In this document: in pieces, positions 50,164 to 53,115 of the stretch
How the letters are laid out: the number at the start of each line of letters is the position of its first letter
How positions within the stretch are numbered: the first letter of the stretch is position 1
From: Flavobacteriaceae bacterium
Lineage (GTDB): Bacteria; Bacteroidota; Bacteroidia; Flavobacteriales; Flavobacteriaceae
NCBI GenBank assembly: GCA_003443635.1
Contig: CP031964.1
Location: 1,272,321 to 1,336,320, forward strand
Direction of reading: 5' to 3'
DNA: 64,000 bases
Notes under the pieces: generated by a model
What the model was told of the DNA's origin: nothing
Seen by the model: only the letters and a program-made list of their open reading frames with translations
Databases searched by the model: none
Made by a program: the position numbers and the translations under genes

Positions 50164-51090
50164 TTATTTAACGAATTTTATAATCCCTTCTATAAGTTCT
50201 GGAGAAAGAGCTCTTAGTGGTTCATTATAAGATTTTGAATTTTCTAGATTATCATTACCTTTTATGGGTACAAGAACATGATTCATATTTTCAATAATTA
50301 AAAACTCAGAATCAGGATTGGCATTTTTTAATAAATTTGCTTCCTCTATAGGGACTTGTAAATCTTTAGTTCCATTAATTATTAAAATTGGCATATTTAA
50401 CTTTTTTATTTCTTCTTGCGGATTATACTGCATCCAATTTGCCATAAATAATTGAATATCTTTATTAAATATAGAAGCTAACGGAGGAGGATAATCATCA
50501 GTAGTTTTTCCTTCTTTTAAAATGGAGAATATACGCTTGCTATCTTTTGTGAAAACTGGGGCACTTGAGCTAATTTGATCTAAAATAATCATATCTATTG
50601 TATTTCCAGCACCAGCTATTGAGATATAGCCATCTGCACCTTCTTTGGCAGATAACATACCAATTAAACTACCTTGACTATGTCCAGCTATATAAATTTT
50701 GTTATACTTATTTTCGGTTTTAAAATATTTTAATACTGAAATTGCATCGGTTACAAAATCATCAAAAAGTATGTTTGGATCGACATTTCTTTTTTTAATT
50801 TGTTTAACCACACGTTTATCATATCTAAAAGTAGCAATGCCAGAATTTGATAGCCCTTGAGCCAGTTTTTTTAAAGAATTATTTTTTGCAAAGTTTTGAT
50901 TTCCATTTCTATCTGTAGGTCCAGAGCCTGCAATAATAATAACAAGATTTGGTTTTTCTATAGCGTTAGGAATTAATAATGTACCATCTATGTATACGTT
51001 TATAGGTACTTCTTGAGTAGTAAAATTTAATTCTTGAGAAAATAATGTTATACTAAATAAAAATAGTAAAAACTGTATTTTAAATTTCAT
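50164..51090 (-). CDS. Secreted alpha/beta-hydrolase, paralog of 47251-48186
   Basis: The 308-residue protein has a signal peptide (ending LFSQ) and the triad Ser138 (GHSQGS), Asp243 (NGTKDLQV) and His271 (MNHVL). The oxyanion-loop region is IIIAGSGPTDRNGNQNF. It shares most conserved blocks with the hydrolase inside the SPFH operon and so is a diverged duplicate. It stands alone: a terminator separates it from the SPFH operon, and a 700-base gene-free region lies upstream. Esterase or peptidase-like activity in the periplasm is inferred. Confidence 0.88.
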   Translation of the reverse strand: MKFKIQFLLFLFSITLFSQELNFTTQEVPINVYIDGTLLIPNAIEKPNLVIIIAGSGPTDRNGNQNFAKNNSLKKLAQGLSNSGIATFRYDKRVVKQIKKRNVDPNILFDDFVTDAISVLKYFKTENKYNKIYIAGHSQGSLIGMLSAKEGADGYISIAGAGNTIDMIILDQISSSAPVFTKDSKRIFSILKEGKTTDDYPPPLASIFNKDIQLFMANWMQYNPQEEIKKLNMPILIINGTKDLQVPIEEANLLKNANPDSEFLIIENMNHVLVPIKGNDNLENSKSYNEPLRALSPELIEGIIKFVK

Positions 51091-51323
51091 TTTAATTTAT
51101 GTTTAATGAAAGTTATTTTTTTATACTAAATACAAATGTTATAATTTATAACGTAATATATTAACCAATTCGTCTTTAATTTATAGTTAATAATAGATTT
51201 AATTTAACTCAAAAATTGTAATACACTAATTATTTAGAAAAATAAAAATGAATATTCAATAATAATTCTTGAGTGTTTTTGAATAATATTTAAAATTTTA
51301 ACACTTATTTTTTAACATTTTAT

Positions 51324-51354
51324 TTGTAAGTGTATTCATATAATTTTATATTTA
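51324..51354 (+). promoter_or_regulatory. Promoter candidate for intergenic RNA 1
   Basis: TTG at 51324-51326 and TATATTTA at 51347-51354 (one mismatch from TAnnTTTG) with a 20-base spacer. This would start RNA at about 51358-51361, just before the structured hairpin. Confidence 0.45.
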
Positions 51355-51359
51355 GAACT

Positions 51360-51475
51360 TCAAGGAGTTTATAGATAAGTATCTTAGTAATGCGTTGTCT
51401 ACCCTGTAGGCAGCTAAGATACTTTAACCCCTTTTTATTTAGAAAAAGAGAGAGCCTAAACCTCTCTCTTTTTTG
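51360..51475 (+). ncRNA. Candidate structured small RNA 1
   Basis: No open frame is present. AAGTATCTTAG (51377-51387) pairs with CTAAGATACTT (51414-51424) over 11 bases. Nested inside, TGTCTAC (51396-51402) pairs with GTAGGCA (51406-51412) with one G-T pair around the loop CCT, leaving an asymmetric 8/1 internal loop. A C/T-rich single-stranded segment and a strong terminator (51443-51474) follow. A promoter-like pair lies upstream. Together these are what a small RNA gene looks like. Known Rfam families of flavobacteria (such as the Flavo-1 motif) should be compared; I cannot tell whether it belongs to one. Confidence 0.55.
51443..51474 (+). terminator. Terminator of intergenic RNA 1
   Basis: AAAAAGAGAGAG (51443-51454), 7-base loop, CTCTCTCTTTTT (51462-51473) and further T. 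A 12-base stem followed by T; the A-run on the left could also serve the minus strand. Confidence 0.85.
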
Positions 51476-51643
51476 TAAATTCTCTAGATTTCCCTCTCTC
51501 TTTTTTTTTCAAAACTATTTAGTATAAATGAAAATACAGATGCATTTCATCGATGATTTGCTTATTTACGTCGTTAAATGTTAAAAAAAAGTGTATTTCG
51601 TCGAATAAATAATGTTTTTTAACGATACATTGAATTTATCTTT

Positions 51644-51794
51644 TACATTTGAAGTGTACTAAAAAAATAGTTTTTAGTTCAATGGATTAATTAATTAATA
51701 TTTGCTTATGTTGTTGATCTTAGTAACCCTAAATCTTTAAACATAAAAAATAAAGCAAATTAAGAAAAGTCGAGATTGAGGGATCTCGACTTTT
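51644..51794 (+). ncRNA. Candidate small RNA 2 (promoter box to terminator)
   Basis: TACATTTG (51644-51651) is a perfect -7 box, though no TTG lies at the expected distance upstream. It is followed by about 110 bases without a convincing open frame (the longest is MLLILVTLNL at about 51709), then by the terminator at 51765-51794. The region upstream (51541-51632) is rich in TTTAACG/CGTTAAA-like words. A small RNA or short leader peptide transcript is possible. The rest of the 703-base gene-free stretch (51091-51793), apart from RNA 1, shows nothing else that I recognise. Confidence 0.4.
51765..51794. terminator. Bidirectional terminator (alkB / RNA 2)
   Basis: AAAAGTCGAGAT (51765-51776), loop TGAGGG, ATCTCGACTTTT (51783-51794): a perfect 12-base stem. 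Its right arm ends at the last base of the alkB stop codon, so it serves alkB on the minus strand and any plus-strand transcript arriving from the left. Confidence 0.9.
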
Positions 51795-52396
51795 TATTTT
51801 ATATACCTGAACGTTAAATTAATTCGTGGTTTAACCTCTTTTTTTGTTTTTGGTATTTGATGTTTCCAAAATTCTTGAGTTGTCCCTTTCATAATTAATA
51901 AGCTTCCATGTTTTAGAATGAGTTTGTGTTTTAAATTTTTATCAGTTTTATGCTTTAATTGAAATACGCGTTCTGCTCCAAAGCTTATGGATGCTATTGT
52001 CGGATTCATCCCTAATTCTTTTTCATCATCAGAATGCCAACCATTACTATCATTACCATTTCTGTAAAGGTTTAATAAGCAAGTTGTAAAATTATGTTGT
52101 GTTATTTTTTCAATTTCAGTTTTAATAATCTTCAATTCTTTGGTAAATATATGAGGCTGCATTGTAATGTTAGAATAACTGTAAGATTTATTGTTATCCC
52201 CATATAGAGCTGTTAACCTAGGTTGTTTATACGTTTTTCCAAAAATAGTGATATTATCTTGCTGCCATTTTATGGTTTCAAAAAGTGTTTTAAAATATGA
52301 ATTGGAGACTTCTAAATTGAAAAAATTAGGATAATATATAAGAGAAGCGTTACGTATATCGATATTTATGGGTTCTGAAAGAGAAAATAATTCCAT
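51794..52396 (-). CDS. alkB: AlkB-type alpha-ketoglutarate-dependent dioxygenase
   Basis: The 200-residue protein has the Fe(II)/2-oxoglutarate signature HxD...H...R: His121 and Asp123 in GWHSDDE, His179 in WKHQIPKT, Arg191 and Arg197 in RINLTFR (2-oxoglutarate and iron-site arginines). The N-terminal nucleotide-recognition lid is present (PRLTALYGD, SYSYS). AlkB repairs N-alkylated bases (1-meA, 3-meC) in DNA by oxidative demethylation. It is divergent from the VanX-like gene, with 38 bases between starts. The size matches the AlkBH2/3-like bacterial proteins of about 200 residues. Confidence 0.93.
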   Translation of the reverse strand: MELFSLSEPINIDIRNASLIYYPNFFNLEVSNSYFKTLFETIKWQQDNITIFGKTYKQPRLTALYGDNNKSYSYSNITMQPHIFTKELKIIKTEIEKITQHNFTTCLLNLYRNGNDSNGWHSDDEKELGMNPTIASISFGAERVFQLKHKTDKNLKHKLILKHGSLLIMKGTTQEFWKHQIPKTKKEVKPRINLTFRYIK

Positions 52397-52434: not shown

Positions 52435-53115
52435 ATGAAAATGAAAGGGTTAATATTTTTTTTACTGATCTCATATCTTGGGTTTTCTCAATCTGAAAAC
52501 ACATTGCCAGCTGGTTTTGTTTATGTTAAAGAAGTTATTCCAACGGCAAGGGTAGAACTACGCTACGCTACTTCAGAAAATTTTGTAGGTAAACCTATAG
52601 ATGGTTACCATTCTGGTAAAGGGATATTGTCTAGAGAAGCTACTAAAGCTTTAAAGAAGGTACAACAAGAATTGTTAAGCTATGGTTATTCGATAAAAAT
52701 ATATGATGCATATCGCCCTCAACAAGCTGTAAATCATTTTGTACGCTGGGCTTCGGATTTAAATGATACTTTAATGAAGCATAATTACTACCCTAATGTG
52801 GAAAAAGAAAACTTGTTTAAAGAAGGGTATATTGCATCACATTCTGGTCATACAAAAGGAAGTACGTTGGATCTAACGTTAATAAGAATAGATACTGAAG
52901 AAGAAGTAGATATGGGGAGTTCTTATGACTTTTTTGGAAAAGAATCATGGGTATACCACGAACATGTTACTAAGAAGCAACGTGAAAATAGATTATTACT
53001 TAAATCTGTAATGAATAAACACGGATTTAAAAGTTATTCAAAAGAATGGTGGCATTTTACTTTAATAAATGAGCCCTTTCCAGATACATATTTTGATTTT
53101 ATAGTTGAAGAATAA
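52435..53115 (+). CDS. Secreted D-Ala-D-Ala dipeptidase, VanX-like (M15D)
   Basis: The 226-residue protein has a signal peptide (ending LGFSQ) and the M15 zinc site: His139 and Asp146 in SGHTKGSTLD, His207 in EWWHF, with catalytic Glu204. The substrate Arg is in IYDAYRPQ (Arg94). VanX-type enzymes cleave D-Ala-D-Ala. Being exported and far from any van cluster, it is more likely to digest peptidoglycan-derived dipeptides in the periplasm than to give glycopeptide resistance, which is irrelevant in an organism with an outer membrane. Confidence 0.9.
   Translation: MKMKGLIFFLLISYLGFSQSENTLPAGFVYVKEVIPTARVELRYATSENFVGKPIDGYHSGKGILSREATKALKKVQQELLSYGYSIKIYDAYRPQQAVNHFVRWASDLNDTLMKHNYYPNVEKENLFKEGYIASHSGHTKGSTLDLTLIRIDTEEEVDMGSSYDFFGKESWVYHEHVTKKQRENRLLLKSVMNKHGFKSYSKEWWHFTLINEPFPDTYFDFIVEE

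Follow-up and report, generated by a model that had tools for sequence, protein, structure and literature searches.

An alpha/beta hydrolase gene and a 2OG-Fe(II) oxygenase gene flank 703 bases without an obvious gene. Does this gap encode a structured RNA, and if so, in which segment? A preliminary description placed an undescribed structured RNA gene in this gene-free stretch, at positions 51324 to 51475 of the window (the whole 64,000-nucleotide stretch of DNA that was analysed). Its account of the stretch fits, but the comparative evidence falls on 51656-51796, a segment that it had not flagged. The gap would hold two separate RNA-like units, the flagged hairpin and a conserved RNA about 180 bases further on. 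We consider a conserved small RNA gene at 51656-51796, together with a lineage-specific terminated stem in the flagged segment, to be jointly the best explanation, with a probability of about 0.58. The genes around the gap and the features of the flagged segment are:

50164-51090, minus strand: alpha/beta hydrolase gene (PF12146)
51324 (TTG) and 51347-51354 (TATATTTA), plus strand: TTG-N20-TATATTTA, promoter-like site attributed to the flagged hairpin
51363-51432, plus strand: flagged hairpin (fold and shuffles)
51443-51474, plus strand: terminator-like hairpin with T run, 3′ of the flagged hairpin (arms and shuffles)
51794-52396, minus strand: 2OG-Fe(II) oxygenase gene (PF13532)
52435-53115, plus strand: D-Ala-D-Ala dipeptidase gene, next after the oxygenase gene (PF01427)

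The flagged hairpin and its search for relatives

The hairpin has the geometry first ascribed to it: an 11-base outer stem (51377-51387/51414-51424) and a 7-base inner stem (51396-51402/51406-51412), with a CCT loop and an asymmetric 7-base internal loop between the stems. The predicted fold adds a U-G pair and an imperfect outer helix (51362-51369/51426-51433). The MFE of 51324-51475 is -41.3, compared to -24.6 ± 3.6 in 200 shuffles, none of which folded as low (z = -4.66). Taken alone, the hairpin (51360-51433; z = -3.6) was equalled by one of 1000 shuffles and the terminator (51440-51478; z = -4.8) by none of 1000. A hairpin energy beyond nearly all shuffles argues for some function. When 74-base frames were ranked by MFE (plus strand, 10-base steps, coding DNA included), the best frame over the hairpin came 31st of the 6393 frames in the window; its fold is strong for the window, not unique.

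The proposed downstream terminator has perfect 12-base arms (51443-51454 and 51462-51473), with the T run belonging to the 3′ arm, and folds as given above, but it is absent from the output of a simple terminator scan on either strand. Its 3′ arm recurs about 30 bases downstream (CCTCTCTCTTTTTT; window 51461-51508), which gives the 5′ arm two possible partners. The gap has no obvious gene; the sole frame of at least 40 codons that overlaps the flagged segment (45 codons) reads through the terminator. The promoter fared less well. TTG-N20-TATATTTA is the only site in the gap within one mismatch of TTG-N17-23-TANNTTTG, but with one site found in the 703 bases, compared to a mean of 1.9 in dinucleotide shuffles, it is no better than chance. 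It also carries an A in place of G(-5), which the available text of PMC6847099 gives as nearly invariant in the Bacteroidetes -7 box of F. johnsoniae promoters.

Searches for related sequences found none. Against Rfam 15, the whole window returned five tRNAs at the gathering cut-off and no match over the hairpin; at E <= 10, the best hairpin matches were STnc400, with 16.5 bits against a cut-off of 80, and sraA, with 18 bits against 56, and a known RNA family was rejected because all scores lay below the gathering cut-offs. By blastn, a second copy was absent from the organism's own genome, and 59 related genomes held no relative, five of them having short pieces only. Twelve secondary blastn loci were inspected: two (L009 and L012) match the flagged terminator alone, and the remaining 10 are short A/T-rich matches, mostly within long open frames. 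A covariance model, R1, built from the hairpin's single sequence, gave no credible match in 298 other family genomes, with five genomes at E values of 0.06 to 0.38; the weak matches L017-L021, when folded, differ in structure from the flagged hairpin. One of these chance matches, in another family genome (L021, about 1481-1570), is an unrelated hairpin that folds strongly and has one T-rich arm. With laxer filters in 40 genomes, the own genome was the sole R1 match. In phages and plasmids, matches to the flagged query were confined to the terminator part among the eight listed of 21 records, and viral contigs had no exact match to a 21-base core of the hairpin.

Ten distinct relatives keep the order of hydrolase gene, gap and oxygenase gene and have the dipeptidase gene in the vicinity (L023 and L052 come from a single genome and were counted once). 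Their gaps span 344 to 394 bases, compared to 706 here by the same tblastn-end measure, and the roughly 300 extra bases include the flagged hairpin. The closest relative compared is distant, with 67% oxygenase identity. At E <= 0.01, the hairpin query matched its own gap and no other among 110 oxygenase loci, a count that includes its own locus and in which loci without the hydrolase gene are represented by 800 bases only.

By the preliminary description's own measure, conservation with compensating changes in related genomes, the flagged hairpin is unsupported: blastn, R1 and the syntenic gaps yielded no relative, and without a findable homologue there is no covariation. The description had left a choice between a member of a known family and something new; no Rfam 15 family was reached, and no relative appeared in the genomes searched. 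The hairpin may have arisen recently as an RNA, or it may be a stem without function. Together with its terminator (about 51358-51478), it would form a lineage-specific unit in DNA missing from the syntenic relatives, most likely a terminated stem that is young or has no function and lies outside any family found. The reading first proposed, in which a small RNA of about 115 bases is dedicated, functional and specific to this lineage, is possible at well under even odds. The hairpin and the terminator each fold far better than shuffles, and a suitably spaced promoter-like site is present upstream, but that site is at chance level and without G(-5), and the genomes searched contain no relative.

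A conserved candidate RNA at the end of the gap

The last 160 bases of the gap match 17 other loci of the oxygenase set, apparently from 16 distinct genomes, at 80-86% identity. The features of this segment, all on the plus strand, are:

51541-51553 and 51592-51604, plus strand: two boxes matching TGYATTTCRTCGA, upstream of the conserved RNA (17-locus alignment)
51644-51651, plus strand: TACATTTG, predicted -7 box of the promoter for the conserved RNA (TAHHTTTG, 39 of 39 copies)
51656-51796, plus strand: conserved candidate small RNA gene (blastn, alignments, covariation)
51678-51705, plus strand: near-invariant A/U-rich segment (alignment, covariation count)
51765-51795, plus strand: terminator hairpin, overlapping the oxygenase stop codon (covariation)

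Among 299 family genomes, own included, blastn matched the conserved RNA in 111 at E <= 1e-3 and strongly in 96 (E <= 8.3e-7), with short, weak pieces only in the other 15. One of these 15, G243, has a divergent copy (locus L168) according to R2, the covariance model built for the conserved RNA. In an order-wide draw, R2 matched at least seven of 296 genomes, own included, all of them Flavobacteriaceae; this count is a lower bound, obtained with stricter filters and 10 candidates scored per genome. Five of 26 named genomes matched R2 (an uncultured Algibacter, Algibacter marinivivus and three unclassified Flavobacteriaceae), a set chosen with L052, L065, L082, L107 and L124 known to be positive, and those are the five that matched. 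R2 matched none of the five named Flavobacterium genomes and none of the 16 other named genomes, including Flagellimonas, Maribacter, Gramella, Dokdonia and Cellulophaga. In genus g146, the search found pieces of only 24 to 45 bases, in six of 61 genomes. The conserved RNA is thus patchy within the family. Elsewhere in the own genome, a 40-base stretch (C1:1190537-1190576, minus strand) matches the A/T-rich part of the conserved RNA at 83% identity (E = 4.6e-4), by chance or as a partial relative.

We aligned 39 copies, comprising the window and its 38 distinct best matches rather than a sample of all 96. From 51 blastn rows, five own-genome loci and eight copies with an identical core were left out, and a fixed length defined where L159 and L028 end. 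A TAHHTTTG box is present in all 39 copies, with HH being CA in 18, CT in nine, TA in seven, TC in three, CC in one and TT in one, and precedes GTAC at a distance of four bases in 38 of them. The position of this box and the -7 numbering in the available text of PMC6847099 together predict a transcription start at 51656.

The 5′ part of the RNA consists of a short hairpin (ACTA...TAGT) followed by the near-invariant TTCAATGGATTAATTAATTAATATTTGC; the last six bases of the near-invariant segment (51700-51705) pair with 51755-51760. An ATTTGC/GCAAAT stem is invariant except for two wobble changes, and the inner stems have standard pairs in 90% and 87% of cells. Within the terminator hairpin, the loop segment TTGAGGGA (51776-51783) is the same in 38 of the 39 copies, and the TTGAGGG in it is present in all 39.

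Across the whole structure, 96.6% of cells hold standard pairs, compared to at most 50.8% with slid partners. Nine of the 33 pairs have changed on both sides, eight of them in the terminator helices (5 and 6), and the 12-pair terminator stem has such changes in seven pairs. At one of its pairs, 17 copies have U-A, 12 have A-U and 10 have G-C, while the enclosed TTGAGGG stays constant. Against 500 shuffles, a control that ignores the relatedness of the copies, four of five covariation measures exceeded every shuffle and the fifth, further pair types, was reached by 45. The window copy folds with a z-score of -4.8 as a whole and -1.8 without its terminator, where 48 of 1000 shuffles fold as low. 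Because the body alone reaches only -1.8, the structural evidence comes mainly from the terminator, and the remainder is sequence conservation.

The conserved RNA has both a promoter and a terminator, as sequence signals, and is conserved with compensating changes. Terminators require a stem and not a fixed loop. That this loop is nevertheless fixed suggests a site for pairing or for binding. Pairing of the loop with the ACCCTAAATC segment in a pseudoknot, judged by eye, was dropped since the segment is altered in L052, L028, L153 and L160.

Rfam 15 contains no evident counterpart: the best match to the window copy was MIR8562 at E = 2.7, 14 loci with conserved RNA copies returned three tRNAs only, and six loci searched at E <= 0.5 returned nothing beyond tRNA-related matches and RsaJ, with 22.9 bits against a cut-off of 100. 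We found no description of it in the largely open-access literature searched, and to that extent the conserved RNA is apparently undescribed.

Gene neighbourhood, upstream boxes and candidate targets

We surveyed the neighbourhoods of the 30 best-matching loci, own included, with flanks of about 1500 bases. A dipeptidase gene lies 3′ of the conserved RNA on the same strand in 29 of the 30, the remaining locus being at a contig edge. The oxygenase gene sits between the two, on the opposite strand, at 22 loci, and the hydrolase gene is found upstream at 21. At seven loci the dipeptidase gene is present without the oxygenase gene; at five of these (L134, L140, L149, L153 and L160) it starts within about 130 bases, and at L155 and L161 it is about 430 bases from the conserved RNA.

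Such a constant neighbour raises the alternative that the conserved RNA is a leader with a terminator, that is, an attenuator of the dipeptidase gene, and not a free small RNA. The same-strand order at 29 of 30 loci points that way, as do L134, L140, L149, L153, L160 and also L168, where the dipeptidase gene directly follows the RNA. But the window and the other loci that make up the 22 of 30 have an oxygenase gene of some 600 bases intervening on the opposite strand, and the distance of about 430 bases at L155 and L161 speaks against a leader as well. Attenuation is unlikely as the general role. At the loci where the dipeptidase gene lies close to the RNA, a leader role is possible; with the oxygenase gene in between, it is simpler to assume a free RNA.

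In the window, the two upstream boxes read TGCATTTCATCGA and TGTATTTCGTCGA; they are kept in relatives and are possible regulator sites. A pattern search found 11 exact TGYATTTCRTCGA matches in the genome, including the two before the conserved RNA. The pattern also precedes genes for a TPR protein whose C-terminus looks kinase-like (judged by eye), a MAM-domain protein and a CAP-domain protein, and other exact matches lie inside open frames (loci L177-L187). With one mismatch allowed, there are 40 matches, compared to 35 for a reversed-pattern control; these counts are close, so a TGYATTTCRTCGA regulon is only a lead.

The dipeptidase mRNA was considered as a target of the invariant loop and rejected: a 7-base complement inside the gene (window 52716) occurs in one of 29 motif copies, and none of the 29 regions around the dipeptidase gene start has a 6-base complement. 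The analysis turned up no target.

Origin of the flagged unit and place of the conserved RNA

Could the flagged segment be what is left of an insertion? Positions 51243-51434 are enclosed by a direct repeat of 13 bases (51230-51242 and 51435-51447), an exact repeat of this length arose in 17 of 500 shuffles, and the gap exceeds those of the 10 relatives by about 300 bases. The repeat, however, is A/T-rich and its significance marginal, and, the terminator excepted, similar DNA was not found in the own genome, in phages or in plasmids. We regard an insertion remnant as distinctly unlikely.

It is very unlikely, in our estimate, that the gap is a two-RNA regulatory locus, in which an ancient small RNA would be joined by a young flagged RNA, either modulating it or using the same protein partner. 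If true, the locus would hold an ancient RNA of an undescribed family that is controlled through its own upstream boxes. A direct relationship, in which the flagged hairpin would duplicate the adjacent conserved RNA or serve as its antisense partner (sponge), was rejected as extremely improbable: the two have one exact 10-base stretch in common (ATCTTAGTAA), but 71 of 500 shuffles reach the same similarity, and the strength of pairing with the conserved RNA is equalled or surpassed by 194 of 200 shuffles.

The preferred reading remains a conserved small RNA gene accompanied by a lineage-specific terminated stem. The conserved RNA would be transcribed from the TAHHTTTG box and would end at the covarying terminator. 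We infer that it belongs to a known general kind, the trans-acting small RNAs, and would act in trans, with its invariant loop and unpaired segment pairing with mRNAs or binding a protein.

To our knowledge, few small RNAs of Flavobacteriaceae have been studied so far. The closest description found is that of Rfp18 of Flavobacterium psychrophilum, given in the available text of PMC9723704 as an intergenic, independently transcribed, structured small RNA. By that description, on which our comparison is based, Rfp18 resembles the conserved RNA, a putative intergenic structured RNA of Flavobacteriaceae that would likewise be transcribed on its own. The region of Rfp18 predicted to pair lies in its third stem-loop, and the invariant loop of the conserved RNA lies in the last of its three hairpin regions (PMC9723704, available text). 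Rfp18 is reported there to be widely conserved in the genus Flavobacterium (PMC9723704), whereas the conserved RNA model has no match in the five named Flavobacterium genomes searched, all of species other than F. psychrophilum.

6S-Flavo RNA (RF01685) is, like the kind proposed for both gap elements, a small structured RNA gene of this group. The organism's own 6S-Flavo RNA is a single match far from the window (C1:2222754-2222883, 98.2 bits), and neither gap element matches its model. The Flavo-1 motif, a structured intergenic element that is widespread in Flavobacteriaceae according to the available text of PMC9723704, has no match in the gap at E <= 10 (Rfam).

The locus illustrates that the most eye-catching hairpin in a gap is not necessarily the one under selection. 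About one in three of the family genomes sampled carries the conserved RNA, and Rfam lacks it. With its fixed promoter box, fixed neighbourhood, covarying terminator and invariant loop of 7-8 bases, this candidate is a ready target for functional study in the Flavobacteriaceae.
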